This document shows, one piece after another, positions 1 to 19,390 of a DNA stretch of 64,000 nt. Within the stretch, counting starts at the first letter, position 1; each line of letters starts with the position of its first letter. A model generated the notes under the pieces. The model searched no databases and had not been told where the DNA came from. It saw only the letters and a program-made list of their open reading frames with translations. The stretch comes from Zoogloea oleivorans (GTDB lineage: Bacteria; Pseudomonadota; Gammaproteobacteria; Burkholderiales; Rhodocyclaceae), in NCBI RefSeq assembly GCF_008107625.1, contig NZ_SDKK01000003.1, positions 193,825 through 257,824 on the forward strand, in the 5' to 3' direction. The position numbers and the translations under genes were made by a program.

Positions 1-144
1 TGGGCCTTTTGCATGGTGTGACCCAGTCTTAAAGTTCCTTTGGCAAGGAGATTTGTGACTTTTCGCACATGCCAGCGGGCTGTTTCGCATCTATTGCGCG
101 TGAGACCATACGGCATAAGAATCAATCGACAGGACGCATACGCC

Positions 145-1227
145 ATGGAATTCATCGACAAGCTGAACAGCCTCGCCGCCAAGATTCGCCAGCAGAAAGC
201 GGCGATCCAGACCGAGGAGGCAACAAAGAACGCTTTCGTGATGCCGTTCATTCATTCGGTGCTGGGCTATGACGTGTTTGACCCCACCGAAGTGATTCCG
301 GAATACGTTTGCGATGTAGGCACCAAGAAGGGCGAAAAGATCGACTACGCCATTCTCAAGAATAATGAGATCCAGATTCTTGTGGAGTGCAAGAAAGTCG
401 GCGAGCCCCTCCACCTCAACCACGCTGGTCAATTGTTCCGCTACTTTCATGTGACGAACGCACGCATCGCGATCCTCACCAACGGGCAGGTCTACAAGTT
501 TTTCACGGACCTCGATGCGCCCAACAAGATGGACGAAAAGCCCTTTCTTGAACTCGACCTGCTCGACATCGACGCGCACGTCGTGCCTGAACTGGTCAAT
601 CTCACCAAGTCGGCATTCGACGTTGAATCGATCATCAGCGCCGCCGGTGAACTCAAGTACGTCAGCCAGATCAAGAAGGTGCTCGCCACCCAGTTCAGTA
701 CGCCAGAGGATGAGTTCGTCAAGTTCATCGCCTGCCGCGTCTATGAAGGCCCGATCACCCAGAAAGTCCGCGAGCAGTTTGCCGAACTGACCCGCAAAGC
801 CACCAGCCAGTTTCTCGGCGACCAAGTCAATGAACGGCTCAAATCGGCCATGAGCGGCGTTGCCGTCCCGACAGTCAGCACCGCAGCGCCGGGCGTGACG
901 GAACCCACAGAGCCGCAGGTAGAAGCGAGCGAAGACAAGGTCGTGACCACAGAGGACGAGCTGGAAGGCTTTCATATCCTCAAGGCCATCGTGCGCTCGG
1001 TCGTCGACGTAAAGCGAATCACCATGCGCGACACGCAAAGCTATTGCGGCGTCCTGCTGGACGACAACAACCGCAGACCAATCTGCCGGCTCCACTTCAA
1101 TCGCAACCAGAAATACCTCGGCGTATTTGATCAGCAGAAGAATGAAACCCGGCACCCGATTGAGTCGGTGGATGATATTTACGGATTCATGGAGCAGTTG
1201 AAGGCGACGGCGGCTTCTTACGTGTAA
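145..1227 (+). CDS. HsdR N-terminal-like restriction endonuclease domain protein
   Basis: A 360-residue protein resembling stand-alone proteins that carry the N-terminal nuclease domain of type I restriction HsdR subunits (COG4748-like). A PD-(D/E)xK core is visible: D67 in KIDYAIL, then E81-x-K83 in ILVECKK, preceded by an acidic TEEATK helix. The C-terminal third (about 275-360) looks like a small separate domain after an Ala/Thr/Glu-rich linker. There is no helicase domain, and no hsdM or hsdS is in view, so this is not a full type I system here. The ATG at 145 is chosen because the upstream in-frame extension to a TTG at 40 is low-complexity and unlike the family. The DNA target and any role in defence are unknown. 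Confidence 0.82.
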   Translation: MEFIDKLNSLAAKIRQQKAAIQTEEATKNAFVMPFIHSVLGYDVFDPTEVIPEYVCDVGTKKGEKIDYAILKNNEIQILVECKKVGEPLHLNHAGQLFRYFHVTNARIAILTNGQVYKFFTDLDAPNKMDEKPFLELDLLDIDAHVVPELVNLTKSAFDVESIISAAGELKYVSQIKKVLATQFSTPEDEFVKFIACRVYEGPITQKVREQFAELTRKATSQFLGDQVNERLKSAMSGVAVPTVSTAAPGVTEPTEPQVEASEDKVVTTEDELEGFHILKAIVRSVVDVKRITMRDTQSYCGVLLDDNNRRPICRLHFNRNQKYLGVFDQQKNETRHPIESVDDIYGFMEQLKATAASYV

Positions 1228-1366
1228 CTGAGGGTCCCGAAAGCTGCCGTAAGTACAGCCCACAGCCGTTACCCATCGCGGACTCTAAAGCTATCTGTGT
1301 GACTGGAATTAACAGAATTACCCATTTCGGTTAAAATTACGGCTCCACTTAACACAGGGAGATACC

Positions 1367-1804
1367 ATGATTCGAAAACTGTTTGCTACAGCCGTTCTTG
1401 CCGCCAGTTTGGTAGGTTGCGCATCTGTCCCGATGGGCGATGCAAAGAAAGATGCCGAACTCAAGTCCTTTTCGGTAAAGCCGGAGGTTTCCGGCCTTTA
1501 TATTTATCGCAATGAATCCATGGGGGCAGCTGTTCGAATGGATGTCGATGTCAATGGGAAGCCTTTGGGCCAAACCGCTGCAAAGACCTATTTCTACACG
1601 GAAGTTGCCCCTGGCAAACACACCATCACCTCCAAGTCAGAAAACACTGACAGCATCCAGATCGAAACAGTCGGTGGCAAGTTGTACTACGTCTGGCAGG
1701 AGGTAAAGATGGGCATTCTTTACGCTCGCACTAAGCTACATCTCGTGAGCGAGGAAGAGGGTAAAAAGGGCGTTCTTGAAACCCAATTGATTTCTGGTCA
1801 GTAA
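1367..1804 (+). CDS. DUF2846 family lipoprotein
   Basis: A 145-residue predicted lipoprotein. A lysine/arginine start and hydrophobic stretch end in the lipobox LVGC (Cys18), so it is probably acylated and anchored in the outer or inner membrane. The mature part fits the DUF2846 family: SGLYIYRNES near the start, then PGKHTI and YYVWQEVKMG. The biochemical function of the family is not known. The ATG at 1367 follows an AGGGAG ribosome binding site at proper spacing. It lies about 140 bases after the HsdR-N gene and upstream of the attI-like site, on the same strand, where an integron integrase would normally sit. Confidence 0.85.
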   Translation: MIRKLFATAVLAASLVGCASVPMGDAKKDAELKSFSVKPEVSGLYIYRNESMGAAVRMDVDVNGKPLGQTAAKTYFYTEVAPGKHTITSKSENTDSIQIETVGGKLYYVWQEVKMGILYARTKLHLVSEEEGKKGVLETQLISGQ

Positions 1805-1815
1805 CCAAAATACGG

Positions 1816-1876
1816 TTCAAGGGATGACTTGCAAGCTGTGCGTGCATTTCATCCCTGGGCTTGAAAATCTGCTTTT
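1816..1876 (+). terminator. Possible terminator or long hairpin after the lipoprotein gene
   Basis: TTCAAGGGATGA (1816-1827) pairs with TCATCC...CTTGAA (1849-1865) with a bulge and a loop of about 21 bases, followed by a T-rich stretch ending in CTTTT. It lies 12 bases after the lipoprotein stop. The loop is long for an intrinsic terminator, so this is tentative. Confidence 0.3.
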
Positions 1877-2123
1877 AAAAAGACTGGAAGTCGCGTTTGG
1901 GGCGGGAAAAGTTGGGCTGAAAGGCAGAGTCCGGCCAGAAGCCGCAAGTCGCCACCCGATACAGAAAGCGGACATCCGGGGGCATATGCTCTACTCCTTC
2001 GTACCACATGAATCGGATCGCCCCTATGCCCACGGCTGCTCCTTTTTCTTTCCTGTTATTTTTCCTTGCGCGAGGCTCCTACTTCTAAACAGTAACTTGC
2101 AGAGCCTGTTATCCGGCATTCCG
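1877..2123. other. Gene-free stretch upstream of the attI-like site
   Basis: No convincing gene is visible on either strand. In class 1-type integrons this interval and the DNA to its left would hold the start of intI reading leftward and the Pc promoter. The minus-strand frames here show no tyrosine-recombinase motif, and no promoter with good -35 and -10 boxes was recognised. The 112-residue + frame that crosses it (1824-2162) runs through the attI-like site and resembles nothing known to me. Confidence 0.5.
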
Positions 2124-2164
2124 ATGTTATGCGGCAGAACTGTCGCCCTAAAACAAAGTTAGCG
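2124..2164 (+). other. attI: attI1-like integron attachment site
   Basis: The stretch ends with GTCGCCCTAAAACAAAG (2142-2158) running into GTTAGCG (2158-2164). From memory this is the same as the end of class 1 attI1, which finishes with the same bases and then GTTAGGC. The preceding GATGTTATGCGGCAG also matches the attI1 integrase-binding repeat with a few changes. The recombination point would be between G2158 and T2159. It is placed exactly at the start of the first cassette, as expected of attI. The comparison was made from memory, not by alignment. Confidence 0.75.
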
Positions 2165-2182
2165 CCTTCAAGGTAGCTCGCA

Positions 2183-2392
2183 ATGACACCGTCAGCCGTT
2201 TCCGAGTACCAAATGAAGCGGTTCTTCATTCCGGGACCAATGCTTCTCTTCCTTGCCGGTCTCAGTGGCCGCTTTGTTTCTCCGAGCTATCTATGGGTAT
2301 CCATTTTGGTAGCAGCTATCTCCGTTCCATTCACACTCCTGTTCATTGCCGCCAGTTTCCGGGCGTTTGTCCAATCTCGGCGGGAGAAGTAG
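2183..2392 (+). CDS. Cassette 1: small two-helix membrane protein
   Basis: A 69-residue protein, the only plausible gene of the first cassette (2159-2501). Two hydrophobic segments are visible, about residues 14-30 (FIPGPMLLFLAGLSG) and 37-58 (LWVSILVAAISVPFTLLFIA), with a basic tail ending QSRREK, so it should sit in the inner membrane. I do not recognise the family. The start lies 24 bases into the cassette, a usual distance. Expression would depend on a promoter upstream of attI or inside the cassette; none is evident. Confidence 0.62.
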   Translation: MTPSAVSEYQMKRFFIPGPMLLFLAGLSGRFVSPSYLWVSILVAAISVPFTLLFIAASFRAFVQSRREK

Positions 2393-2420
2393 TGGAAACC
2401 AATTGTCTTAATAGCCCCGT

Positions 2421-2507
2421 CGCTAACACTCCGTTCGAGGCGCGGCTCCGCCGCTGGGACGCCGTGCCGGTGGGGCCGGCCCGTCGCCCCTCACCTCCAC
2501 GTTAGCG
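2421..2507 (+). repeat. attC: attC site of cassette 1
   Basis: R'' CGCTAAC (2421-2427) and R' GTTAGCG (2501-2507) bound an 87-base imperfect palindrome rich in GC. R'' is the exact reverse complement of GTTAGCG at 2158, the 5' end of the same cassette, as the cassette model requires. Cleavage would be between G2501 and T2502. Confidence 0.88.
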
Positions 2508-2521
2508 CTCAAGGAGAGCCC

Positions 2522-2953
2522 ATGTCCAACACGCAGTTCGCCTTTCTAAAGAAGTCACAGGCTCCGAGCAGAGCGGCGCTTCAAGCATCTATCGACGCGC
2601 TCGGCTTCGACTTGAAACTCGATCCCACTCTCAACCTTCTAGAAGACTCTGGCTTTTCGCCATGTGTATTGGCAGGAATCTCTGATGTTGGGTTCGAATT
2701 GTTCACAGAACCAGCCAAGGATCTCATTGGCGACAACGACGAATTCCTAGAGTCAATCGGGGATAGTGACTTGGCCGTAAACATGATTTGGCGTGGCAGC
2801 ATGAAGGACTGCGCATCCGTGCTAATCGTTAGTTGCGCGCTGGCAAAAGACTTCGGTGCGGTCATTTCATACGAAGGAGAGCCTCCTGAGCCGTTCGAAA
2901 ATCTGCTGGAGGCTACACGTGAAGCCATTGCCGAAGCCAAGAAAGAGCGCTAA
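2522..2953 (+). CDS. Cassette 2: hypothetical cytosolic protein
   Basis: A 143-residue acidic protein with no signal peptide or membrane segment, of unrecognised family. The middle is hydrophobic and beta-like (CASVLIVSCALAKDFGAVISYEGE), and the C-terminal helix ends EAIAEAKKER. The size and character recall small immunity or antitoxin-like cassette proteins, but no specific family can be named. The ATG at 2522 follows AAGGAG with good spacing, only 15 bases after the cassette boundary. The TAA stop lies inside the attC R'' heptamer (2948-2954), so gene and recombination site overlap. Confidence 0.8.
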   Translation: MSNTQFAFLKKSQAPSRAALQASIDALGFDLKLDPTLNLLEDSGFSPCVLAGISDVGFELFTEPAKDLIGDNDEFLESIGDSDLAVNMIWRGSMKDCASVLIVSCALAKDFGAVISYEGEPPEPFENLLEATREAIAEAKKER

Positions 2954-2996
2954 CAAATCGGTCAAGGCCGCTCCCTCCCTACCTGCAACAGCAGAC
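2948..2996 (+). repeat. attC: Decayed attC site of cassette 2
   Basis: R'' CGCTAAC (2948-2954) is intact and is the exact complement of the cassette's own 5' heptamer GTTAGCG at 2501. The expected R' is present only as AGCAGAC (2990-2996), where the downstream cassette's R'' (GTCTAAC at 3837) predicts GTTAGAC. The GTT needed for recombination is lost. The whole site is 49 bases, shorter than its neighbours; compared with the split site at 5413/6918, which shares TCGGTCAAGG, the central part looks deleted. Cassettes 2 and 3 are probably locked together. Confidence 0.65.
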
Positions 2997-3016
2997 ACTC
3001 CCACTCTTCTTACTCC

Positions 3017-3520
3017 ATGAACGCATACCACCTTGCCCAAGTTAATGTCGCCTTGGCGCGTGCCGAGATGACTTCCGAGATCATGAGCGGCTTTGTCTCA
3101 CGCCTAGATAAAATCAATCGCCTCGCAGAGAATTCAAAAGGTTTCGTTTGGCGCCTCATCGGCGATGGCTCCGATGCAAGCAGTATCAGGGTGTTTGAAA
3201 ACCCATTGCTCCTCGTAAACATGAGTGTCTGGGAAGACTTGGAGTCGCTGAAGATCTACGCCTACAAGTCCGCCCATGTCGAACTCATTCGGGATCGAGA
3301 CGCCTGGTTTCACAAGCTGCCCGAGGCACACCAAGCGCTCTGGTGGGTCCCCGCTGGTCATATCCCGACCGTTTTCGAAGCCAAGCTCCAGCTTGAGCAC
3401 ATCAGGGCGCACGGGCCTTCGCCTAAGGCATTTACATTCGCAAAGCCTTTTCCGCATCCAACCGCGCGCCCCTTCCCCTGCATGTCAGACATTGTCTGCC
3501 ACCAGTCTAGTAACCAATAA
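3017..3520 (+). CDS. Cassette 3: DUF3291 family protein
   Basis: A 167-residue protein matching DUF3291, small proteins related to the dimeric alpha-beta barrel of antibiotic-biosynthesis monooxygenases. The family signatures MNAYHLAQVNVA at the start, GFVWRL, NMSVWEDLESL and the WWVPAGHIPT segment are visible. No catalytic function is established for the family. It is soluble, with no signal peptide. The ATG at 3017 lacks a clear Shine-Dalgarno sequence. It shares the cassette with the YciI-like gene 16 bases downstream. Confidence 0.85.
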   Translation: MNAYHLAQVNVALARAEMTSEIMSGFVSRLDKINRLAENSKGFVWRLIGDGSDASSIRVFENPLLLVNMSVWEDLESLKIYAYKSAHVELIRDRDAWFHKLPEAHQALWWVPAGHIPTVFEAKLQLEHIRAHGPSPKAFTFAKPFPHPTARPFPCMSDIVCHQSSNQ

Positions 3521-3536
3521 CCACTTGAGAGATGCA

Positions 3537-3842
3537 ATGCACTATCTAATGTTTTACGACTTTGCACCAGACTATCTCGAACGCAGAACCCCGTATCGAA
3601 ACGAACATCTCCAACATGCTTGGCAAGCGCATGCCAGAGGAGAGCTTATTCTCGGTGGTCCATTGGCCGACCCAACGGATCGTGGCGTCTTGCTGTTTGA
3701 ATGCGATTCACCTGATATTCCGTCGCGGTTTGCGGATGCCGATCCTTATGTAAAGCGCGGTGTCGTCACGCGTTACCAAGTGCGTCCATGGACGACAGTC
3801 ATAGGCGAAGACGCGTTTTCCCCCGTGAAGCCCAATGTCTAA
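3537..3842 (+). CDS. Cassette 3: YciI-like protein
   Basis: A 101-residue protein of the YciI-like family (small ferredoxin-fold, dimeric alpha-beta barrel). It has the typical opening MHYLMFYDFAPDY, a conserved His in RNEHLQHAW, LILGGPLADP, and the closing DADPYVKRGVVTRYQVRPW. The family is linked to small-molecule turnover, but this member's substrate is unknown. The ATG at 3537 is chosen because the family starts at this methionine; the longer open frame runs back through DUF3291 in another frame. The TAA lies within the R'' heptamer of the next attC. Both proteins of this cassette have the same overall fold class. Confidence 0.85.
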   Translation: MHYLMFYDFAPDYLERRTPYRNEHLQHAWQAHARGELILGGPLADPTDRGVLLFECDSPDIPSRFADADPYVKRGVVTRYQVRPWTTVIGEDAFSPVKPNV

Positions 3843-3908
3843 CATCACAATCCACCGGACCTCCGGCAAGCTGCGCTTGCCTACGTCCGGTGATTTGCAA
3901 CGTTGGGC
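3837..3908 (+). repeat. attC: attC site of cassette 3
   Basis: R'' GTCTAAC (3837-3843) and R' GTTGGGC (3902-3908) enclose a 72-base palindrome with the arms CACCGGAC and GTCCGGTG. R'' contains the stop codon of the YciI-like gene. R'' implies that the cassette once began GTTAGAC, which fits the degenerate AGCAGAC at 2990. Confidence 0.92.
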
Positions 3909-3926
3909 ATCAAACCTCCTGATTCC

Positions 3927-4505
3927 ATGAACCCATTCATTCAATTAGCACAGTGGATTAGCGAAGAACGACTCGCCGGCATTCCCTTTAGTCATGGGGC
4001 CGTGCTTGGTACTGTTGGGCATGATGGCATCCCAAGAACACGTATGTTGGGCGTGCATTTCGATGAAGAGAGCATTCCCAGGTTCCATACTTCGCCCACT
4101 AGTCGGAAGGTCACCGATATTGGAATCAATCAAAATGCATCGATCACCTTTGCTTTTCAGAGAAGCCTTCGTTCGGTGTCTATCGAGGGCGTTCTTGAGG
4201 TGATTCCTCACGGACAGCTCGTATCTGACTGGCTAGCCCTCGATCAAAAATTCAGGCGTAGTTATCTTGTTTTTGGCCACCGCTCCGGGCAACCTGCTGA
4301 CTCAGACGTATCCCTCGAGCACTTACTTAAAGAACTTTCCCCAGGTTCCGAAAACGAAATGCCCCCAAGCTTTATTGGGTATCGCTTTTCGCACGTCAGC
4401 AGGATTGCCTTCTATTCAGTAGGCAGCGGGAATTTTGCCGAGCATGTCGTATTTTCCCGAGATGGCGGCGGAGAAAACTGGCTTTATTCAAGAGTGGTTC
4501 CATGA
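3927..4505 (+). CDS. Cassette 4: pyridoxamine 5'-phosphate oxidase-like flavoprotein
   Basis: A 192-residue protein resembling the PNPOx-like split-barrel FMN-binding family. Visible family features are PRTRMLGVHFDEE (the FMN phosphate-binding strand in PdxH), the SRKVTDIGINQNASITFAF strand-helix-strand, and a C-terminal YRFSHVSRIAFY. It is not a clear PdxH, since the PdxH C-terminal WRLxP signature is absent; other FMN or heme-linked reductases share the fold. The ATG at 3927 is preferred over the TTG at 3903, which lies inside the attC core. No convincing ribosome binding site precedes it. Soluble. Confidence 0.8.
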   Translation: MNPFIQLAQWISEERLAGIPFSHGAVLGTVGHDGIPRTRMLGVHFDEESIPRFHTSPTSRKVTDIGINQNASITFAFQRSLRSVSIEGVLEVIPHGQLVSDWLALDQKFRRSYLVFGHRSGQPADSDVSLEHLLKELSPGSENEMPPSFIGYRFSHVSRIAFYSVGSGNFAEHVVFSRDGGGENWLYSRVVP

Positions 4506-4511
4506 AACCAT

Positions 4512-4578
4512 GCCCAACCAATCATTCCACCGGACCTGCGCAAAAAGCCGCGCAGGCCGGTGAATTAACACGTTATGT
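4512..4578 (+). repeat. attC: attC site of cassette 4
   Basis: R'' GCCCAAC (4512-4518) and R' GTTATGT (4572-4578) enclose a 67-base site with a strong stem, CACCGGACCTGCGC against GCGCAGGCCGGTG. R'' is the exact reverse complement of GTTGGGC at 3902, the 5' end of this cassette. Confidence 0.93.
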
Positions 4579-4593
4579 TGCAACAAAGGACTC

Positions 4594-5028
4594 ATGCGCT
4601 ACGTCGCCATTCTTTTCATCCTAGCCCTCGTAGGGTGCTCGAGGTCGAACACGGATGCCAAGATGCAAAGCCACTACGAGAAAAAGAAAGAATACTTCTC
4701 TGCGCTTGTTTCGGGCACTGACTGTCATTTCGACAAGGACAAAATATTGTTTCGGTCGGAGGTCACCAAGGAGAATAGTGCTTGTTTGAAGCTAATGGCT
4801 GAAGTAGAAGCAAACGGCGTTGATATCGATCCTTTTTCGGGTGGAGTAGTGGTGTACCCATTTTGGCTTAACTTCTCTAGCAAGCAAAAAGGATATGTTT
4901 ATTCGGCAGAAGAGTTAACCCCGCTATACCCTTCACTCGACGAGCATCCAGAAGATTTGCACCCGTACGAGAGGGGGTACAAAAAGATAGCCGACAAATG
5001 GTACATCTATTACGAATATGTCAATTAG
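4594..5028 (+). CDS. Cassette 5: hypothetical lipoprotein
   Basis: A 144-residue predicted lipoprotein. The start MRYVAILFILALVGC has a lipobox with Cys15, so the mature protein should be acylated and periplasm-facing. The rest is polar and rich in Lys, Glu and Tyr, with two further cysteines (SGTDC and NSACL) that could form a disulfide. The family is not recognised. The start is 22 bases after the cassette boundary. The base composition is visibly more AT-rich than the core genome later in the window, in keeping with an acquired cassette. Confidence 0.8.
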   Translation: MRYVAILFILALVGCSRSNTDAKMQSHYEKKKEYFSALVSGTDCHFDKDKILFRSEVTKENSACLKLMAEVEANGVDIDPFSGGVVVYPFWLNFSSKQKGYVYSAEELTPLYPSLDEHPEDLHPYERGYKKIADKWYIYYEYVN

Positions 5029-5036
5029 CAAATGCT

Positions 5037-5106
5037 ACATAACCCGACAGTCAACGCGGACGCTGCGCGATAGAGCCGCGCAGCGCCGGTCACTTCTACG
5101 TTAGAC
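5037..5106 (+). repeat. attC: attC site of cassette 5
   Basis: R'' ACATAAC (5037-5043) and R' GTTAGAC (5100-5106) bound a 70-base site with the stem GCTGCGCG against CGCGCAGC. R'' is the exact reverse complement of GTTATGT at 4572, the 5' end of this cassette. Confidence 0.93.
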
Positions 5107-5118
5107 ACATCCGAATTT

Positions 5119-5418
5119 ATGGCCCAAGAAATCGACGAACAGTTTTACGAGAGAGCAGATGCGCACATTCACTTATCGAATGAGCAGGCTCAAAGTATTG
5201 GCCGAGGAAAAGTTAGCGCCTCGATGATGTATGCCACTGCAAGATTCAATGCGTGGGTGAGCGCCACAGGCTTTTCTGAAAAGGAGCAAATGGCTTCCAC
5301 TCGCCAAGAAACAATCGAGTATTTCGTCGAGCAATACCGGTCAATGCTCGAAAGCAATCTCGATGATTACATTTCAAACTTTGAGAGTTACATGCAGGTA
5401 GGCGATACCAATGTCTAA
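5119..5418 (+). CDS. Cassette 6: DUF3144 family protein
   Basis: A 99-residue protein fitting DUF3144. The family pattern is visible: FYERADAHIHLSNEQ, then GKVSASMMYATARFNAWV, then a helix with YFVEQYRSMLESNLDDYI. The family is small, soluble and helical, of unknown function, and is usually found on proteobacterial chromosomes as well as in cassettes. The start is 13 bases after the boundary. The TAA stop (5416-5418) lies inside the R'' heptamer GTCTAAC, which is also where the IS is inserted, so the coding region itself is intact. Confidence 0.87.
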   Translation: MAQEIDEQFYERADAHIHLSNEQAQSIGRGKVSASMMYATARFNAWVSATGFSEKEQMASTRQETIEYFVEQYRSMLESNLDDYISNFESYMQVGDTNV

Positions 5419-5419
5419 C
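5413..5419 (+). repeat. attC: Left part (R'') of the attC split by the IS1111-group element
   Basis: GTCTAAC is the exact reverse complement of GTTAGAC at 5100, the 5' end of this cassette. The rest of the attC resumes at 6918, after the insertion. Rejoining the two parts gives a normal attC of about 82 bases. Confidence 0.88.
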
Positions 5420-5459
5420 ATCTCTAAGGACTTCCCCGTCAAGTACCGTTTTTCAATGA

Positions 5460-5480
5460 CCGGCCGGCAGGCCGGTTTTT
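5460..5480 (+). terminator. Intrinsic terminator inside the left end of the IS
   Basis: CCGGCC (5460-5465), a GGCA loop, GGCCGG (5470-5475), then TTTTT and a pyrimidine tract. It is oriented to stop transcription running rightward from the cassette array into the IS, which should isolate the last cassette from upstream promoters. Confidence 0.7.
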
Positions 5481-5757
5481 CTTTCCTGCGCTCCCTTCCT
5501 GACCTCTGCACACACGCGACGGATCGGACAGACAGACTGCCTCTCTCTAATCGGCCTTGATCGGGTCTCGCCCGGGGCCATGCGACTAACCGCACCAGCA
5601 GGCCTCAATCGTTCGTCGGCGGGATCAGGGAAGAGGGGATCAGCCACGTCCCTTGTTGATCCGCCATCAGGTTAGCCACTCATTTGCCAACTGAGTCTGC
5701 TGGTCGGTCTGACCTGTTCTCTATCGCTGACGTGCAGTTGCCATTGCTCGGTTGTGC
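5481..5757 (-). ncRNA. Candidate guide (bridge/seek) RNA region of the IS1111-group element
   Basis: The roughly 280 non-coding bases downstream of the transposase stop occupy the place where IS1111-type elements encode their target-guiding RNA. On the - strand a stem pairs GGCGGATCA (complement of 5657-5665) with TGATCCCGCC (complement of 5618-5627) around an unpaired interior. Two short matches to attC cores lie here: GACTAAC (5584-5590), 6 of 7 to RYYYAAC, and GTTAGCC (5671-5677), 6 of 7 to GTTRRRY. They could be the target-recognition strands. Position and family knowledge support the call; the exact RNA ends and guide assignment are inference. Confidence 0.5.
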
Positions 5758-6813
5758 TCAGCCCCGTTGCCAGGCCTGTGGGTTGTAGGACTCGCCTTTC
5801 GCCAGCACCGCCCACAGTTGCCGGGCGTGCTTGTTGGCGATGGCGACCAAGGTCTTGTGATAGCCGATCCGTCCGTTGAGCACGACGATCCACTGCTGCA
5901 GACGAGTCAGCTTCTCGGGGGATTCACGCCGCTGTTTTCGGAGCGTCGCGGCCAGCACGCTGCGCGCGCCTTGCACGAGCAAGGTCCGCAGATAGTCGTC
6001 GCCTCGCCGGGTGATGCGTCCAAGCTTCGTCTTGCCCCCGCTGCCCGACTGGCTGGGCGTGAGGCCGAGCCACGCGGCGAACTGGCGGCCATTGCGGAAC
6101 ATTGATGCGTCGCCCACGCTGGCGGTCACCGCATCGGCGGTGATGAGCCCGACGCCGGGCAGATCCCGCGCCCGTTTCGCCAGCGGATCGTTCGCCTGCT
6201 GGGCGGTGATCTGCCGGTCGCATTCGCCGATCCGGGCGTCCAGCGCATCGAGTTGGTCGCGTACGCTCTGGATCAATCCGCGCAGGGCTGGCGACAAGGC
6301 GGTGTCGAATTCCCGCTCGGCCAGCAGCGCACGCAAATGCTTTGGACCGGGATCGACAATCATCCCGAATTCGGCGAGCAGCCCGCGGACACGGTTAAGG
6401 AGCGCGGTGCGTTCTTCCACCCAACCGACCCGCAGGCTGTGCCAGGCCAGGCGCTGCTGCTGGGCTTCGGTCTTGACCGGGATGAAGCGCATGCCGGGCG
6501 AAAGCAAGGCCACGAGGATTGCCTCGGCGTCAGCCCGGTCATTCTTGACCGACTGGCGCTTGCGATAGGGTCGGACAAACTCGGCGGCCATCAGGCGCGG
6601 CGCCAGGCCCAGACGCTGTGCCGTGCGGCCCCAGTGGTGGGCGCTGCCACAGGCTTCCATGCCGATCACTGTGCCAGCCGGCAACGTGCCAAGCCAGGTC
6701 ATAAAGCCCTCCCGGTTGAACTCCTGCCGCGCCACGATCCGCCCGGCGCAGTCTGCCACGCAGGCCACGAAGACGTTCTTTGCCAGATCCACACCAACCG
6801 TCGTAGTATCCAT
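5758..6813 (-). CDS. IS110-family transposase (IS1111 group)
   Basis: A 351-residue DEDD recombinase that moves the element by RNA-guided recombination. The N-terminal RuvC-like domain shows D9 in VGVDLAKN, E53 in GMEACGSAHHW, and D92 and D95 in KNDRADAEA. A coiled helical linker follows (about 130-200). The C-terminal Transposase_20 domain has the LPGVG helix-hairpin motif near 215 and SGSGGKTKLGRITRRGDDYLR near 255-275, which carries the region of the catalytic serine. The length is normal for the family and the frame is intact, so the element may be active. It is transcribed against the cassette genes. Confidence 0.95.
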   Translation of the reverse strand: MDTTTVGVDLAKNVFVACVADCAGRIVARQEFNREGFMTWLGTLPAGTVIGMEACGSAHHWGRTAQRLGLAPRLMAAEFVRPYRKRQSVKNDRADAEAILVALLSPGMRFIPVKTEAQQQRLAWHSLRVGWVEERTALLNRVRGLLAEFGMIVDPGPKHLRALLAEREFDTALSPALRGLIQSVRDQLDALDARIGECDRQITAQQANDPLAKRARDLPGVGLITADAVTASVGDASMFRNGRQFAAWLGLTPSQSGSGGKTKLGRITRRGDDYLRTLLVQGARSVLAATLRKQRRESPEKLTRLQQWIVVLNGRIGYHKTLVAIANKHARQLWAVLAKGESYNPQAWQRG

Positions 6814-6917
6814 TTTGACTTCCCTCCTCGCCGTTTCAGATTGAGCCTGAGAAATTCAATCTTGGCACTTGGATGCCAGGTGGCAAGCCCACCGGGTGGG
6901 TGGGGGAAGTCCTTTTG

Positions 6918-6992
6918 TAGTCGGTCAAGGCGCTCTCTTCGGTCGCTGGGACGTCCCGCAAGCGGGCCGCCCCTTACCTAGCACAGTTGGGC
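6918..6992 (+). repeat. attC: Right part of the attC split by the IS
   Basis: AGTCGGTCAAGG continues through an imperfect palindrome (GGGACGTCCC, then AAGCGGGCCGCCC) to R' GTTGGGC (6986-6992). It forms a complete attC when joined to GTCTAAC at 5413. The opening resembles that of the decayed attC at 2948, which has AAATCGGTCAAGG. Confidence 0.85.
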
Positions 6993-6998
6993 GTCACG

Positions 6999-7454
6999 AT
7001 GAAGGTACCTGCTGCTATTTTCGCGTTGCTACTAATGGCCTTTAATGCGTCTGCCTCTGAGGAAGGGAAATCTTGGCTGTCAGCTCCAGCCGGAATGAAC
7101 GAAGAGTCGGGGACTCCAATCCCGACCGAGGATAGCTGCGAAGTCCCAGCATCAAAACTTACCAATGCTCTCTCTCAATTAGCCGAAAAAACGCTTATCG
7201 CGCTTGATCCAACTACGGTGAAGAGTCTCGTAGGTGAGTGCATCAAGATCGCGGCGAACAAGACTCCCTACTTAGTCAGGGCCGTTTATGGGCATCGGGG
7301 AACAGGCCATTATTTCGTGCGCCGTGTAGGTGACGATCTTCTCGTCGCCCATGGATCATTAGGCCGTTACACCACTTATTCAAAATCTGCACTTGTTGTG
7401 AATCTGTCTTTCGCTCCAAAGAGTGAGTTCATCATGGTGGTCATTGACCAATGA
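6999..7454 (+). CDS. Cassette 7: hypothetical secreted protein
   Basis: A 151-residue protein with a Sec signal peptide (MKVPAAIFALLLMAFNASA, cleavage probably after ASA near residue 19). The mature domain has two cysteines (EDSCEV and VGECI) that could pair, and a beta-rich second half with HRGTGHYFVRRVGDDLLVAHGS. I do not recognise the family. The ATG at 6999 lies only 6 bases after the R' core, and no ribosome binding site can be seen, since the upstream bases belong to attC. The IS terminator upstream probably removes it from array transcription. Confidence 0.75.
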   Translation: MKVPAAIFALLLMAFNASASEEGKSWLSAPAGMNEESGTPIPTEDSCEVPASKLTNALSQLAEKTLIALDPTTVKSLVGECIKIAANKTPYLVRAVYGHRGTGHYFVRRVGDDLLVAHGSLGRYTTYSKSALVVNLSFAPKSEFIMVVIDQ

Positions 7455-7455
7455 C

Positions 7456-7526
7456 GCCCAACAATCCGGTCCAGCGGCAGTCGGCCAGCTGCGCTGTCCG
7501 ACTGCCGCTGACCTACAACGTTGAGC
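7456..7526 (+). repeat. attC: attC site of cassette 7, last in the array
   Basis: R'' GCCCAAC (7456-7462) and R' GTTGAGC (7520-7526) enclose a 71-base site with a strong stem, CAGCGGCAGTCGG against CCGACTGCCGCTG. R'' is the exact reverse complement of GTTGGGC at 6986, the cassette's own 5' end. No GCTCAAC was noticed downstream, so the array appears to end here. Confidence 0.93.
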
Positions 7527-7723
7527 GACTGCTTTCCTCACCGTTCAACGGCCGCATTGGGTCGCAAACAGCCACTCCACGCGATCCACTTGCGGTGCAA
7601 GACCAATAGACGAAACCACGGCCATGCAAAGACCCAGCGCTACCCTTTCTGCATCCATTACGGTCCCGTTGTTTTGAGCCATTCATACATCTCTCTGCGC
7701 CTCCACTTTCACCCCCGACTTTT

Positions 7724-8200
7724 ATGTCACGACAACTTCGCTGCCTCACCGCATTCATCCTGCTGATCCCCGCCGTCGATTACGTCTGCGCCCAATCCCT
7801 CCCGCCGCCGTCCCGCACGGTCTTTCGGTGCGAGGAGGGCGGTAAGGTGGTCTATTCGGATTCGCCTTGTGTGGGGGCGAAGAAGATTGATGTGGAGCCG
7901 ACGCGGGGTGTCAGCAAGTTGTCGGGCCGGGAGCGGGTGGGGCGGGATGTGCAGCACGAGCAGTTTCGGGAGCAGCTTGCCGAGGCGATTCGGCCTATTA
8001 GCGGGATGGATGCGCGGCAGTTTGCGGTGCATGAGCGTCGCATTCACTTGAGTGCCGAGGCGCAGCAGGAGTGCCGGCGTCTGGATGCGCAGCTGCCACT
8101 TGTTGAACGGGAGGAGCGGCAGGCCAGCACGGCGTCTTTGGGCGATGTTCAGAGCCGCTTGTTTCGCTTGCGAAAACGCTTTCGCGAGCTTGGTTGTTAG
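7724..8200 (+). CDS. DUF4124-like secreted protein
   Basis: A 158-residue protein with a signal peptide (MSRQLRCLTAFILLIPAVDYVCAQS, cut near 24) and a short DUF4124-like segment (FRCEEGGKVVYSDSPC, residues about 34-50) in which two cysteines frame a small beta domain. The rest is charged and helical (HEQFREQLAEAI, EERQASTASLGDVQSRLFRLRKRF). Such periplasmic proteins are common in betaproteobacteria; their role is unclear. The 197 bases between the last attC and this gene hold no recognisable gene. It may be the chromosomal flank of the array or an end cassette without attC. Confidence 0.75.
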   Translation: MSRQLRCLTAFILLIPAVDYVCAQSLPPPSRTVFRCEEGGKVVYSDSPCVGAKKIDVEPTRGVSKLSGRERVGRDVQHEQFREQLAEAIRPISGMDARQFAVHERRIHLSAEAQQECRRLDAQLPLVEREERQASTASLGDVQSRLFRLRKRFRELGC

Positions 8201-8214
8201 TTCTTTCCCTGTCA

Positions 8215-8338
8215 GCGCGTCCCTCACCCTGCCAGCCGCAGCGCCGGGGCCGGCGATGACCAGCAGGTTGCCGGCGGCGAGGCCCCTGAGCCTCGGATTG
8301 GCGGCAAGGGCGACCAGCAAGCGGTATTTGATTAGCGT
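8215..8338 (-). pseudogene. Fragment of a paralogue of the gene at 8869-9186
   Basis: Read on the - strand this gives RLLVALAANPRLRGLAAGNLL then VIAGPGA, closely resembling RFLLLAMLRSLAAGNLLVISGPGA in the 105-residue protein encoded at 8869-9186. The rest of that protein (the YYRISPRGYDFW part) is missing, and the fragment runs into the 3' end of the DUF4124-like gene. It looks like a truncated duplicate. Confidence 0.55.
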
Positions 8339-8352
8339 GAGGTGCTGTGCTG

Positions 8353-8375
8353 TGTCGGACTGAAGTCCGACCCAC
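8353..8375. repeat. REP-like palindrome, single copy
   Basis: GTCGGACTGAAGTCCGAC with a CCAC tail: the core GTCGGACT-GA-AGTCCGAC is a perfect palindrome apart from the centre. The same unit occurs at 9781, 13183, 13229, 16082, 16125 and 32682, with a variant at 32726, always between genes. Confidence 0.85.
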
Positions 8376-8460
8376 CGTACGCCAAAGTCCGAGCTGCTGC
8401 GTGATTTGTCCCGTTTGATTGAGCGGCTGCCCCCGGCTTATCCGCTTCACGCCATCCTCA

Positions 8461-8736
8461 TCACCGCACCAGATGCGCGTCGAAGGCGGCCTTGGCGTTG
8501 CCTGAGAAATGGTATCTGGCAAACAGGCGCTGCAATTTGTCGGAGTTGGTTCTGGCGGTGGCGGTGAACCAGATGCCGATCCGTTTGCCTTCGCGGGCGA
8601 GGGTGGTGAAGGCGTAGTGCCATTCACGGGCTTCTTCGAGGCGTTCGATGACTTCGCGTTCGTTGTTGATCGCCACGCCTGCGCGTTTGAGCGAGTTGAT
8701 GAACTGGGTGGATTCCTTGCTGGGGCTGGTCGTCAT
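8461..8736 (-). CDS. Hypothetical protein
   Basis: A 91-residue basic, soluble protein (MTTSPSKESTQFINSLKRAG...). It is probably helical, with NNEREVIERLEEAREWHYAF near 27-46 and a C-terminal LQRLFARYHFSGNAKAAFDAHL. The family is not recognised. The start at 8736 is preferred over one 14 codons upstream because GGAGAG lies at good spacing before it. It is one of a run of small - strand genes between the cassette array and fic. Confidence 0.6.
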   Translation of the reverse strand: MTTSPSKESTQFINSLKRAGVAINNEREVIERLEEAREWHYAFTTLAREGKRIGIWFTATARTNSDKLQRLFARYHFSGNAKAAFDAHLVR

Positions 8737-8868
8737 GTTGCTCTCCGGGTTTTTGTGTCTATGCGCAACTAACGACAAGCCCGGGGTTTGGATGACGGCG
8801 CTGCTGTTTCAGCATGTAAGGGCGCTTCGCGCTGGCTGTTAGTCGCGGTCTTTCCCTGTGAGCGCCCC

Positions 8869-9186
8869 TCACCCGGCCAAGCGCACAAAAAACTGCTCAC
8901 GCCAACTCAACGACGCCCACCATTTCTCGCCGCTTTGCCAGAAGTCGTAGCCGCGCGGGGATATTCGGTAGTACTGGATGCCATTCAGTGAATTGGCTTC
9001 AGCAATCCATTCGTGGGCCAGGATGTAGTTGAAGAGTGTGGCGACGTGGGGGAGGCCGTCGAGAAAGCATTCGAAAGCGCCGGGGCCGGAGATGACCAGC
9101 AGGTTGCCGGCGGCGAGGGAGCGCAGCATGGCGAGCAGCAAGAAGCGGTGGGGAATGCCGCTTGGCGTCGATTCTCTGGAAGTCAT
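8869..9186 (-). CDS. Hypothetical protein, paralogue of the fragment at 8215
   Basis: A 105-residue protein. The N-terminal half has the hydrophobic LRSLAAGNLLVISGPGAF segment that recurs in the nearby fragment. The C-terminal half reads GIQYYRISPRGYDFWQSGEKWW, which resembles the wing and tail of a small winged-helix or phage-like domain, but no family can be named. The start at 9186 follows GGGTGGAG. Soluble. Function unknown. Confidence 0.55.
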   Translation of the reverse strand: MTSRESTPSGIPHRFLLLAMLRSLAAGNLLVISGPGAFECFLDGLPHVATLFNYILAHEWIAEANSLNGIQYYRISPRGYDFWQSGEKWWASLSWREQFFVRLAG

Positions 9187-9283
9187 GACTCCACCCCCCC
9201 TCCCGCATTCTTGCTGTCGGTAGTGTGGTTGACAGTGGAATCGGGGGTGGAATTCCCGCGGTGAATCGCTGGTCTTTGGGGGC

Positions 9284-9481
9284 TTACGCGGCCTTTCTCA
9301 GATACCCCAACGCATCGACCACTCTGGCGGAGTGCTCAAGCCGTTCGACCACTTCATAGCGCGCCAGGGCTTGTTCTTCGGTGAAGTGATAGGCGGTGAC
9401 GAAGAGTCGTCTTGTTACGGCTTGCCCTTGCTGCGCGGGTTTTTCCCTGACAAAAAAGCGGTAGCGGGTTTCTGTTGCCAT
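9284..9481 (-). CDS. Small hypothetical protein
   Basis: A 65-residue basic protein (MATETRYRFFVREKPAQ...). A beta-like N-terminus is followed by a helix HFTEEQALARYEVVERLEHSARVV. The start at 9481 is preceded by GGAGAT at short spacing. The family is not recognised. It lies 10 bases after the next gene upstream (9492-9686), so the two may be co-transcribed. Confidence 0.55.
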   Translation of the reverse strand: MATETRYRFFVREKPAQQGQAVTRRLFVTAYHFTEEQALARYEVVERLEHSARVVDALGYLRKAA

Positions 9482-9491
9482 GACATCTCCT

Positions 9492-9686
9492 TCATGTGTG
9501 GTGAGACTGTGCATCGGGCGAGACGCCCTCGCGCCAGTGATCCACGTTGGGTTCCCGGTGGCTGGCGACTTGCAGCCCGGCTGTTGCCAGCCTGGCAAGG
9601 CGTGACTCGTTGCTGGTTTCCATTGCCCAGAGGGAGGCGGAGTCAAGCAGGGTGAGCGCAGCGGCCACCAGCACTTTGTACTTCAT
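9492..9686 (-). CDS. Small hypothetical protein with hydrophobic N-terminus
   Basis: A 64-residue protein. MKYKVLVAAALTLLDSASLWAM looks like a signal peptide or a membrane anchor; the rest is polar and ends in an Asp/His-rich tail. A clean AAGGAG lies 9 bases before the ATG, which is the main support. Homology is not recognised. It probably forms a pair with 9284-9481. Confidence 0.5.
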   Translation of the reverse strand: MKYKVLVAAALTLLDSASLWAMETSNESRLARLATAGLQVASHREPNVDHWREGVSPDAQSHHT

Positions 9687-9780
9687 TCTTTGCGACTCCT
9701 TGAGGGTGGGCTGCCGTGTGTGACTGCAGGTCAGGGTGACAGAACTTCATTGCAGTCTTGCGTGGGTTGCGCGGGGGCTG

Positions 9781-9803
9781 TGTCGGACTGAAGTCCGACC
9801 CAC
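9781..9803. repeat. REP-like palindrome, single copy
   Basis: TGTCGGACTGAAGTCCGACC with ACCAC-type tail, identical in core to the copies at 13229 and 16125. It sits just downstream of the truncated open frame that follows fic. Confidence 0.85.
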
Positions 9804-9906
9804 GGAAGGGGGTAGGGCGTCCGGGAATGATGTCGGTATTTTTGTGAGTGTGGGGCCAGCTCACCTTTGACGTGATCGTGCAGATTGAGACCGTAAGGCT
9901 TGCCAT

Positions 9907-9996
9907 TTACAGCAGCTTCGACGCGTCCACCTTGTAACCTGCGTCCTTGAGCACATTGCGGTCTGCTTTCCAGCCGCCCTGAAAGAGAATCTTCAT
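9907..9996 (-). pseudogene. Truncated gene translationally coupled to fic
   Basis: A 29-codon frame starts at an ATG that overlaps the fic stop as ATGA, has AAGGAG at proper spacing inside the end of fic, and begins MKILFQGGWKADRNVLKDAG before a stop. The start looks like the beginning of a real protein (a short beta strand and glycine turn), but the frame ends too soon. Downstream there is only a REP palindrome and non-coding sequence. The likely reading is a gene cut off by deletion; it may instead be a genuine micro-protein. Confidence 0.5.
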
Positions 9997-11261
9997 GGGT
10001 GTTTCTCCTTTGAGACAACATTGCCCGGCACGCTCACAATTCCCTCTGCTTCAGGCCACAGCCCGGGAAACAGGAAGCGGAAACTGAAGAACGGAAACCC
10101 CGGTTCGAGGTGTCCCGCCCTCGACGGCGAGACGACGAGCCTTTGTTCAAGCAGGCTGCTGATGACGCGAGAGGCTGTTCGATCTGAACTATCGATCATT
10201 GCCTTGAATTCTCCGCGATCGAGCCGGCCTTCGACGAACAATCTATGCAGTGCGCGGCCGAGCAGTTCGGGGCGCAGCTTGCTGCGGTGATGCAGTAAGG
10301 GGCCGCGCCCGTAATCGTGCAGGAACTGCAGGGCAAGGCTGACGTATCGGGCCTGCATGGTGTCGAGAGACAGTAGCTTGTCCATGAACTGGACCTGGTC
10401 GAGGCAGGTTTCCAGCCAGAAGCCGATGAATTCGGCCAGACCTTTGGAGCTTAGGTTTCCGCGACCGTCGGTGTCGTTACGTCTTGGCAGGTCGGCCTGG
10501 TGCAGGGCGCCGTAATAGTCTTGCTGGCGACGGGCGAGACCGCGCATGGGGGACCAAAGCCCTTCGGTCAAGCCCATATGGTGCAGAAGCAGGTGGTTCT
10601 GCAGGCGGCTGACTCGGCCGTTGCCGTCAGGGAAGGGATGAATCCATGACAGGCGGTGCAGGGCTGCGCCTGCCACCACCAGCTTCATGGAGTCGCTGTA
10701 TTTCGGGACGCCGTATCGGAAGTGGAAGTGCGCTAGGAGTTGGGGGAGATCGGCGGGGTCGGGGGCTGCATGGGAGCCGACCTTTACCCAGCCTGCCCGG
10801 ATTTCTCCGGGTTCCATGAGCCCGCGTTTGTTGCCATCCTGGTCGACGATGACCCGGCAGTCGTCACCGAGTCTGGAATAGAGCGCACGGTGGATGCCGG
10901 CAATCCACTCGGGCTGGAACATTTCGGCCCACGTCTGGCTCCTGGTGTTTTTTTCCAGTTCCTCTTCGACTTCCATGTGCGCCAGGGCCAATTGTTGACG
11001 CCGCTTGATTTCGTGGTCCTGCGAGAAGTGATTGGAGAGTGCCTCTTCCAGGTCGGACGGGTAGGTGTGCTGCCCTTCAATCTTGTTGGTGTAGTACGAG
11101 TTCATCGCACGCAGGATTCTGGCCAGTGACTGGCGAGCTTCCTTGCCGATCCGGGGCATGAGGCGGGCGCATTCAGTGCGCACGTCGGCGACTTGCTCAA
11201 GCAGGGGCACTAAATCAATGTCACTGGGAACGACGGGCTCGATCAGGCCTACGACTAGCAT
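9993..11261 (-). CDS. Fic family protein with N-terminal autoinhibitory motif
   Basis: A 422-residue Fic-domain enzyme, expected to transfer AMP (or another nucleotide moiety) from a nucleoside triphosphate to a hydroxyl on a target protein. The catalytic motif HPFPDGNGR lies at 208-216, with His208 as the base. An inhibitory motif of the (S/T)xxxE(G/N) type is present as TNKIEG at 58-63, so Glu62 should hold the enzyme off by the class II arrangement. A C-terminal winged-helix-like segment (about 320-390: GEFKAMIDSSDRTASRVISSL) is common in this group. The target is unknown. The stop overlaps a following ATG. It has its own start region, downstream of the lldP terminator. Confidence 0.9.
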   Translation of the reverse strand: MLVVGLIEPVVPSDIDLVPLLEQVADVRTECARLMPRIGKEARQSLARILRAMNSYYTNKIEGQHTYPSDLEEALSNHFSQDHEIKRRQQLALAHMEVEEELEKNTRSQTWAEMFQPEWIAGIHRALYSRLGDDCRVIVDQDGNKRGLMEPGEIRAGWVKVGSHAAPDPADLPQLLAHFHFRYGVPKYSDSMKLVVAGAALHRLSWIHPFPDGNGRVSRLQNHLLLHHMGLTEGLWSPMRGLARRQQDYYGALHQADLPRRNDTDGRGNLSSKGLAEFIGFWLETCLDQVQFMDKLLSLDTMQARYVSLALQFLHDYGRGPLLHHRSKLRPELLGRALHRLFVEGRLDRGEFKAMIDSSDRTASRVISSLLEQRLVVSPSRAGHLEPGFPFFSFRFLFPGLWPEAEGIVSVPGNVVSKEKHP

Positions 11262-11388
11262 TTGGCGACTCTTCTTTGTTTGTATGAATAGAAAATTGCT
11301 TACTAAACAGTTGCTTGTTGCTTGCTGTTTTGTTTATTGGCGACCTTTTGACGAATCCTAGCACCGCAATTGCACGTGCGTCACGCCA

Positions 11389-11421
11389 CAAAAAAACGGC
11401 GACCGTTTTATCGGTCGCCGT
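11389..11421 (-). terminator. Intrinsic terminator after lldP
   Basis: Read on the - strand: ACGGCGACCG, an ATAAAA loop, CGGTCGCCGT, then seven T. A classic rho-independent terminator about 50 bases after the permease stop, ending the lactate operon and separating it from fic. Confidence 0.93.
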
Positions 11422-11472
11422 TCAAACTCCCAGGGGACGCATCATCCCCGGTCATGCCGCAAACTCAGCCGC

Positions 11473-13122
11473 TTACGGGATCATCCACGGGAAGACATAG
11501 GCCTGCAGCGTGGTGATGATGCCGACCATGCCGGCGAACATCAGGCTGTGCTTGAGGGTGAAGCGGAACAGGTCCGATTCCTTGCCAACCAGGCCGACTG
11601 CGGCGCAGGCGACGGCGATGGATTGCGGGGAGATCATCTTGCCGGTGACGCCGCCGGTGGTGTTGGCGGCCACGAGCAGGGTGTCCGGTACGCCGATCTG
11701 GTGGGCCGTGGTGGCTTGCAGCGAGCAGAACAGGGCGTTCGACGAGGTGTCGGAGCCGGTGAGGAACACGCCCAGCCAGCCCAGGAAGGGCGAGAAGAAC
11801 GGGAACAGCACGCCGGTGCCGGCCAGCAGCAGGGCCAGGGTGGCGGACAGGCCGGAGTAGTTGGCGACGAAGGCGAAGGCCAGTACCATGCCGATGGAGT
11901 AGATCGGGCGCTTCAGCTCGATCACGGTTTCCTTCAGGGTCTTGGCGGCTTCGCCCGACTTCATGCCCAGCACGAACATGCTGATGATGGCGGCCAGGAA
12001 GATGGCGGTGCCGGTGGCGGAGACGACGTCGAACTTGTACACCGCGGCGTAGGGCGTGGCTTTGGCAACGATGGGTTCCATCTTGATGACCAGCTTGTCG
12101 AGCATGGGCATCGGGAACTGGAAGACCAGTGCGTACAGCGGGCCGTCCTTGGCGAACAGGGCCTTGAAGGGCTTGAGACTCCAGATGGTGACCATGACGG
12201 TCAGGATCAGGAAGGGCGACCAGGCCTTGGCGATCTGGCCAAAGTTGTACACCTTGCTGGTGTCGATGGCCTTGGTTTCGTGCTGGGTTTCAAAGCGGAA
12301 GATGCGCTTCGGCTTCCAGTTCTTCAGGAAGATGGTCAGGCAGACGAGGCTGACGAGGGCCGAGGTGATGTCCGGCAGTTCGGGGCCGATGTAGTTGGCG
12401 GTGAGGAACTGGGTGATGGCGAAGCTCAGGCCGGCGACGAGGATGGCGGGCCAGGTTTCCTTGATGCCACGCCAGCCGTCCATCATGGCGACGAGCCAGA
12501 AGGGCACGATCACCGACAGCAGCGGGAGCTGACGACCGGCCATCTGGCCGATCTTGAAGGGGTCGATGCCGGTAACCTGGCCGCCGACGATGATGGGGAT
12601 GCCCATGGCGCCGAAGGCGACCGGGGCGGTGTTGGCGATCAGGCACAGGCCAGCGGCGTACAGGGGGTTGAAGCCCAGGCCGACGAGCAGGGCGGCGGTG
12701 ATGGCCACCGGTGCGCCGAAGCCCGCTGCACCTTCCAGGAAGGCGCCAAACGAGAAGCCGACGAGCAACATCTGCAGGCGCTGGTCATCGGTGATCGAGA
12801 TGACGGAGGCGCGAATGATGTCGAACTGGCCGGTCTTGACCGTGATCTTGTAGAGGAACACGGCGGCGATGATGATCCAGGCAATCGGCCACAGACCGTA
12901 CATGAAGCCGTAACCGGCCGAGGCCAGGGCCATGGGCACCGGCATCTTGTAGAAGAAGATGGCCACGGCCAGGGCGATGGCGACGGTGATGGTGCCGGCT
13001 ACGTGCCCCTTCATGCGCAATACGGCGAGCGCGATGAAGAAGAAGAAAATCGGCAGGGCGGCGATCAGTGACGACAGCCACAGGTTGCCCAGTGGGTCGT
13101 ATATCTGCATCCAGGGTTGCAT
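11473..13122 (-). CDS. lldP: L-lactate permease
   Basis: A 549-residue inner-membrane proton-lactate symporter of the LctP family, taking up L- and D-lactate and probably glycolate. About 13-14 hydrophobic segments cover the length. Typical blocks are visible: [22 protein letters not shown] near 125-145, [14 protein letters not shown] near 165-180, and the C-terminal [17 protein letters not shown] with [15 protein letters not shown]. It is the last gene of the module, behind the dehydrogenases, with a REP pair in the gap upstream and a strong terminator downstream. Confidence 0.95.
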
Positions 13123-13182
13123 GGGTAAATCCTCCTTTGGTGAATACGGTGAATCGTTGTGCGCGGCGTAAAAAAGTGCCCC

Positions 13183-13250: not shown

Positions 13251-13259
13251 GGGGTGTTG

Positions 13260-16073: not shown

Positions 16074-16081
16074 GTTCTTTC

Positions 16082-16146: not shown

Positions 16147-16151
16147 AGGGC

Positions 16152-18283: not shown

Positions 18284-18284
18284 G

Positions 18285-19361: not shown

Positions 19362-19363
19362 TC

Positions 19364-19374: not shown

Positions 19375-19390
19375 ATTTTTAGAGGCAGGC

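Follow-up and report, generated by a model that had tools for sequence, protein, structure and literature searches.

Chromosomal class 1 integrons of Betaproteobacteria were reportedly described by Stokes in 2006 and by Gillings in 2008, and a 2009 report by Gillings is said, going by its title, to concern MITE-like (miniature inverted-repeat transposable element-like) elements that flank a Tn402-like class 1 integron. According to PMC8618304 and PMC5460862, a Tn402-type transposon 'captured' a chromosomal class 1 integron; the portions of text available give no mechanism. Here we analyse a cassette array in a stretch of 64,000 nucleotides from Zoogloea oleivorans (contig NZ_SDKK01000003.1, hereafter the window), which has an attI1-type recombination site and no integrase gene. 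In our judgement the array is probably a single copy of an integron unit of class 1 type that is mobile and has no integrase. From left to right, such a unit would comprise a left terminal repeat, an element of about 231 bp that ends in the attI1-type site, the cassettes, and a 45-bp right module with an inverted repeat.

The sequence GTCGCCCTAAAACAAAGTTAG occurs exactly at positions 2142–2162, is the sole match in the 64 kb when up to three mismatches are allowed, and appeared in none of 100 shuffled sequences. By local alignment (query 2086–2164), attI1 of R751 (NC_001735) matched window positions 2122–2160 with 34 of 39 identities and a score of 53, whereas no shuffle out of 200 exceeded 24. 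An earlier, sequence-only reading of the window had proposed an attI1-like site here, with the first cassette starting exactly at its crossover (G2158|TTAGCG), and both claims stand. The crossover itself we take to lie between G2158 and T2159, by analogy with its position in attI1. Two direct repeats, GTTAT(C/G)CGGCA, are placed like the DR (direct repeat) sites of attI1 and may have the role of those sites.

Across an alignment of 34 copies, conservation begins at position 1932, with CGGCCA, and stops at the attI crossover; the flanks are mostly unrelated, with a few copies sharing left flanks pairwise. The alignment omitted nine of 31 genus matches, consisting of short pieces and intI-adjacent attI sites (G003:C73, G016:C171 twice, G001:C21, G015 twice, G020, G021:C154 and G021:C86), and seven of the 18 stretches from a species collection, described below, coincided with genus copies and were counted once. 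Of the stretch singled out earlier, 1805–2164, the attI1-like end is confirmed, and the conserved element starts at 1932, not at 1805. The left boundary is recognisable in 28 of the 34 copies, the others being cut or diverged, and a left-end weight matrix was built from 28 of the 34 (12-of-16 filter). Its best match in the window is the left end of the unit, which scores 31.7 and is itself among the matrix seeds. In many copies, attI is conserved together with about 190 bp upstream. Because some 150 bp between the left end and attI have no counterpart in the five intI-bearing loci compared, the recurring intI-less element is taken as a standing architecture of its own; common to it and to intI1 integrons are the attI (63–67 columns) and, weakly, the left end. 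An Rfam scan of window positions 1–20000 returned no family at the gathering threshold.

At the other side of the unit, the arrays share a 45-bp module, GTTGAACGACAGCTTTCCTCAAAGCTCAACGGCNGCANTGGGTCG, after the last attC, and this module ends in an inverted counterpart of the left end. The profile with which it was located in the arrays had seven seeds, and the loci searched include these. When reverse-complemented, 19 of 23 right ends give their best fit to the left-end matrix at the boundary; the scores of 13 of the 23 lie above the 99th shuffle percentile. The unit therefore has imperfect terminal inverted repeats, roughly CGGCC...GCGGCCG. The test set omitted four of 25 modules (THA1a, Azo_a, C37_up and C38b_up) and added R751 and pTha01. 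A covarying hairpin in the right module was considered and rejected, as its single pair with a double change was reached by 104 of 500 shuffles. A second right-end type, GTTGAACTAAACCGCTGA(A/C)GCGGTGGCC, follows the last attC in locus L105; in L113, a contig binned as Chloroflexota, the same type directly follows a 53-bp identical attI, and L113 is possibly an empty unit of another subtype.

The element is dispersed. A search with window positions 1805–2182 was positive in 13 of the 23 Zoogloea genomes, in nine of which the match included the part upstream of attI, and there were five matches in the source genome, G000. Scanning a species collection for the 21-base sequence identified the site in 18 stretches, belonging to Zoogloea, Thauera, Azoarcus, Azonexus, Diaphorobacter, one Pseudomonas and several metagenome-assembled genomes. 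In a family survey of 150 genomes from 68 genera, a model of the attI half of the element (R2, which also picks up some intI1-adjacent attI sites) matched 25 genomes in 17 genera, and a model of the right module (R1) matched 34 genomes in 22 genera; each had five matches in G000. Both models were built partly from genomes later scanned, including G000, G004 and G013, so matches in seed genomes are partly by construction. Among 72,556 plasmid records, four contained the element at E ≤ 1e-8. No intI was seen between the left end of the element and attI in the recurring copies.

Comparison of closely related copies indicates that the site has been used in cassette exchange. The elements of plasmids pMRCP1333 and pYKBR041 are identical over 231 of 231 positions and their first cassettes diverge after a common TTAG; those of Diaphorobacter and WAS_Bin_15 are also identical (231/231), with first cassettes that diverge after TTA. 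The T. propionica element, matching that of pMRCP1333 at 229 of 231 positions, has a different first cassette and a different left flank, and the REEB364 element (228/231 to pMRCP1333) has a different left flank. As identical elements are followed by different first cassettes, attI has been used, presumably by IntI1 acting in trans. Behind the element, pMRCP1333 carries qacF, aac(6')-31 and blaIMP-1, and pYKBR041 carries aac(6')-31; pN260-3 has a partial element beside IS26, with aac(6')-Il, fosI and blaIMP-1. No intI1 was seen in the stretches of these three plasmids examined, which are parts of the plasmids. In the part of the source available, pYKBR041 is of activated sludge origin, with aac(6')-31 as the sole accessory gene listed and a host recorded as resistant to kanamycin (PMC9499019), and that cassette therefore seems to be expressed. 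In G158, a single-contig genome of the same family, intI-less elements lie at about 1 kb and 1.1 Mb from the IntI1 gene, so trans supply of the integrase exists in the family.

The same ends enclose units that do contain intI1. In G021, an IntI1 95% identical to that of R751 (300/315) lies between a left end (matrix score 22.6) and a right module. In R751, the 45-bp module is found between the last cassette and tniR, is an exact match over 45 bp to that of pMRCP1333, and the left end abuts the Tn402 part. The integron of G158 has an IntI1 99.7% identical to that of R751; reading inward from the left end, the two agree at 60 of 60 bp and at 1297 of 1400 positions ungapped over 1400 bp, against only 19 of 60 bp outward into the left flank, and they share the 45-bp right module, beyond which their flanks differ. 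Near-identical integrase genes in units with the same limits and other surroundings therefore support the view that Tn402 obtained its integron by insertion of a discrete unit, a step that we infer from this comparison. In the G158 class 1 unit (L191), the Diaphorobacter unit (L111) and an Azoarcus unit (L107), the right flanks begin nearly alike, as if at one preferred target. A class 1 integron with a Tn402-type left part and a right flank that is not tniR occurs on plasmid pRSB223 (L202).

We propose that the unit would move as a block through an enzyme acting at the terminal repeats, and that cassettes would enter and leave at G|TT by means of IntI1 acting in trans, its source being a unit with intI1 carried by the same cell or lineage. 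A promoter would be provided by the 5' element or by DNA just outside it. The enzyme may be YR, a 237-aa tyrosine recombinase (PF00589) whose gene has divergent left ends on either side in L191, L194 and, in G000, L083. In G013, the YR gene is in two pieces between two divergent elements, and the matrix picks up only one of the two left ends. These four loci were chosen because they hold elements; a second YR copy of G000, which came from the recombinase search alone, has a left-end-like repeat just upstream and none downstream. Nine plasmid YR genes were picked from the best 15 listed of 442 records (H104 was viewed apart, and H106, H109, H114, H116 and H117 were left out), and four of them have an outward repeat downstream that exceeds all 800 shuffles; another gene exceeds the 99th percentile on its upstream side. 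The recombinase encoded on pRSB223 is identical to the YR of G158. A different tyrosine recombinase, 33% identical to IntI1, is repeated in G158 at L196, L197 and L192, with a length of 295 aa in the first two, which also contain right modules. A left end upstream of a right module, which would mark an autonomous transposon, was not found for five right modules searched in G158.

Several results weigh against this proposal. Across 17 units there was no convincing target-site duplication, the best of 5766 offset and length combinations reaching 35% as compared with 27% in permuted pairs. No empty site was identified, and the window flanks are not conserved in the genus; at the G004 site, the close relative G008 has other DNA and not an empty site, and for the G001 site, the retrieved DNA next to the left gene lacks the right flank. 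An empty unit, with attI joined to the right module with at most one mismatch, was found in none of 399 genomes of the order. The repeats are imperfect, and 10 of the 23 right ends fail the 99th percentile. Matrix scores are low for left ends of intI1 units (R751, 17.9; G158, 14.8; best of three shuffled windows, 17.4), and it is therefore in their first bases and their position that these ends resemble the others. YR is a candidate linked to the units only by position, and inward-facing repeats also beat all shuffles in two of the nine plasmid YR genes. A promoter scan of window positions 1800–2300 passed no match. Many element-bearing genomes have other IntI types only, or none. Not every pair of elements differs in its first cassette, since that of REEB364 is nearly the same as that of pMRCP1333. 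Finally, homologous recombination has room to act, as tandem units joined by a similar linker of about 27 bp occur in C37, C38b and G001:C21.

Some of these points fit a history with no block transposition. In it, the unit ends would be breakpoints within an intergenic repeat that is common and was left behind by YR genes, and arrays with their attI would have spread through homologous recombination, through tandem duplication and as parts of larger, laterally transferred pieces. The lack of target-site duplications and the tandem units with similar linkers favour such a history, as do the left-end-like repeats that flank several YR genes and the Diaphorobacter unit, whose left flank is common with one Azoarcus copy and whose right flank is common with another. 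We consider it unlikely in view of near-identical units at different sites: for R751 and G158, and again for pMRCP1333 and REEB364, near-identical ends give way to unrelated flanks, with the transition lying at identical bases at each end, and T. propionica shows the same change of flank on the left.

The source genome (5.68 Mb, 107 contigs, 100% complete) yielded no integron integrase at the cut-off in a genome-wide profile search, its best match scoring 96 bits versus the 265 required, nor was one found at E ≤ 1e-60. The genes of 302 and 305 aa that gave this best score look XerC/D-like, judging from their size and split match. Two 302-aa Xer-like genes of G000 (G000:C38:260476-261300 and 277237-278061) lie 17 kb apart near a contig end, with equal family scores and in opposite orientation. 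An intI lying outside the window is rejected on these searches, in which no integron integrase of the genome exceeds the cut-off, and the suggestion that the array could be mobilised only by an integrase elsewhere is supported. Because no IntI was found, the arrays of G000 are probably static for now; the earlier description of a fixed array may hold for this genome today, and fails for the element type, which has different first cassettes elsewhere. In the family survey, 92 of the 150 genomes have an integron integrase, but G000 and G004 do not. The DNA around the 34 aligned copies (0 to 14 kb per side) holds no true IntI, and three element loci have distant recombinase matches (29–31%). By the usual marks of class 1, the window shows an attI1-type site and attC cassettes at the crossover, without an intI1 adjacent to attI. 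For another such mark, a Pc promoter that drives the cassettes, positions 1800–2300 gave no match, and on pYKBR041 a cassette behind a related element accompanies resistance.

Cassettes might instead have been inserted by a Zoogloea integrase of another class. Non-class-1 IntI genes do occur in the genus, that of G006 being 57% identical to IntI1. Yet the DNA upstream of eight such genes (up to about 600 bp each, and 258–280 bp for two) scored 15–23 in alignment to attI1, inside its own shuffle range, whereas the IntI1-adjacent attI sites of G021 and G003 scored 54 and 62 (36/42 and 37/41 identities). We regard this explanation as improbable.

The sequence-only reading had favoured a chromosomal integron that lost intI and its promoter end by deletion at this place, leaving attI and a fixed array. 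An attI without intI, followed by a retained array, is what such decay would leave, and a broken intI1-like gene, with attI and right module still in place, does exist in G003 (L089:10442-11331). An element with the same boundaries, however, recurs in many places and genera, and about 150 bp of it are absent from the five intI loci compared. Loss as a single event is largely refuted by this repeated architecture, and we give it very little credence. Least credible of all, to the point of being negligible, are chance attG-type insertions of cassettes with an incidental likeness to attI: integrase-less arrays occur commonly, and off-target insertion has been put forward as one of their origins in the part of the source available (PMC8618304), but the score against attI1 lies far beyond shuffles, which refutes a chance resemblance, and the site is conserved with its upstream DNA in many copies.

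More tentatively, and with somewhat less than even confidence, we suggest that class 1 integrons and their intI-less kin form one family of mobile units with shared terminal repeats. YR would recombine them at CGGCCA, the intI-less units would be a non-autonomous tier that scatters attI docking sites in Rhodocyclales for IntI1 acting in trans, and the clinical integron would have entered Tn402 by insertion of a unit beside IRi.

The features of the window are collected in Table 1. The place at which intI would be expected holds an HSDR_N gene and a DUF2846 lipoprotein gene, both on the + strand, as noted before. The DUF2846 gene could possibly, on weak grounds, be the last cassette of a decayed upstream array: the left-flank likeness to C38b scores 32 versus a shuffled maximum of 27, and that to C37 is 28 versus 29, and no right-module match was found upstream of the unit on the DUF2846 side.

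Table 1. Features of the cassette array and its surroundings in the window
Feature	Position	Strand	Basis or content
HSDR_N gene	ORF (open reading frame) ~145-1227 (scanned from 151)	+	Pfam
DUF2846 lipoprotein gene, left of the unit	1367-1804	+	Pfam
Discrete ~231-bp 5' element ending in attI, without intI	1932-2162	+	genus search, copy alignment
Left end of unit, CGGCCAGAAGCCGC..., left half of imperfect terminal inverted repeat	1932-1957	+	
Two direct repeats GTTAT(C/G)CGGCA	starts 2108 and 2126 (span 2108-2136), 18 bp apart	+	read directly
attI1-type recombination site	2122-2162	+	motif scan and R751 alignment
First cassette	2159-2507	+	69-aa ORF 2183-2392, no Pfam match; attC 2421-2507
Further cassettes	2522-5106	+	143-aa ORF, DUF3291, YCII-related, PNPOx_N, 144-aa ORF
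attC sites of further cassettes	3837-3908, 4512-4578, 5037-5106	+	
DUF3144 cassette with attC apparently split	5119-6991	+	R'' ~5413, R' ~6985
IS110-family element inside the DUF3144 cassette attC (5413-6991)	transposase 5758-6813	-	
Last cassette	6999-7526	+	151-aa ORF, no Pfam match; attC 7456-7526
Conserved 45-bp right-end module, GTTGAGCGACTGCTTTCC...GGGTCG	7520-7564	+	begins with the R' box of the last attC

With five accepted attC sites and no IntI found in the genome, the array falls among the clusters of attC sites lacking integron integrases (CALINs), for which the definition is two or more attC sites with no integrase close by. The sites came from a heuristic finder, for which shuffles of the 64 kb give four to seven matches at scores of at least 17 and none or one at scores of at least 19; sites scoring about 17 are consequently not significant alone. 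Three of the five score 17–18 and were accepted for their location between ORFs, and three of eight attC-like matches (3278, 4809 and 7297) were discarded as lying inside ORFs. The IS110-family element seems to interrupt the attC of the DUF3144 cassette; an end of the same element also stands before attC-like DNA left of the C38b unit (L083). Beyond the array, a gene of about 158 aa follows the units at C8 (window 7724–8200) and C38a (G000:C38:2940-3173), the two copies being related; the window copy has no Pfam match and lies in a stretch that is matched in eight other Zoogloea genomes. A REP-like (repetitive extragenic palindrome-like) short repeat of about 27–30 bp around CGGACTGAAGTCCGACCCAC is present at 8345–8386 and 9777–9803 and recurs in many G000 contigs.

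An integron divided between many attI platforms and a single integrase at another place changes how integrase-less arrays should be read. Resistance arrays behind the intI-less element, such as those of pMRCP1333, with blaIMP-1, and of pYKBR041, could escape surveys that use intI1 as a marker if the cell has no other intI1; in pN260-3 the element is partial. As the chromosomal unit and the Tn402 integron share exact ends, the capture step is open to test. Among titles and abstracts, we found no literature describing an intI-less attI element with these ends; the Stokes 2006, Gillings 2008 and Gillings 2009 reports lie outside that coverage, and the ends may already be known to specialists and be described in the first two.

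Of the described systems, the MITE-like elements of the 2009 report resemble the present repeats in being short terminal-repeat DNA associated with a class 1 integron; set apart by title alone, they flank an integron, whereas the repeats here are the ends of the unit. The delta-attI-type gene cassettes, in the part of the source available, likewise have an attI-derived site in an unusual place that is used by IntI1, but there the attI-type site stands where an attC is usual (PMC12901181), and here attI heads an array without intI. A CALIN has the same attC array without intI; the window unit differs in having a true attI1-type site and two ends that are conserved and repeated. The chromosomal class 1 integrons of Betaproteobacteria, to which the intI1 units of G021 and G158 belong, share the host group and the attI1-type site with the window unit, which is of a type without intI1. 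The Tn402 class 1 integron of R751 has an attI1-type site, attC cassettes, a right module and a left end of the same kind; it differs in that intI1 lies between the left end and attI1, and in that it adjoins tniR within Tn402.
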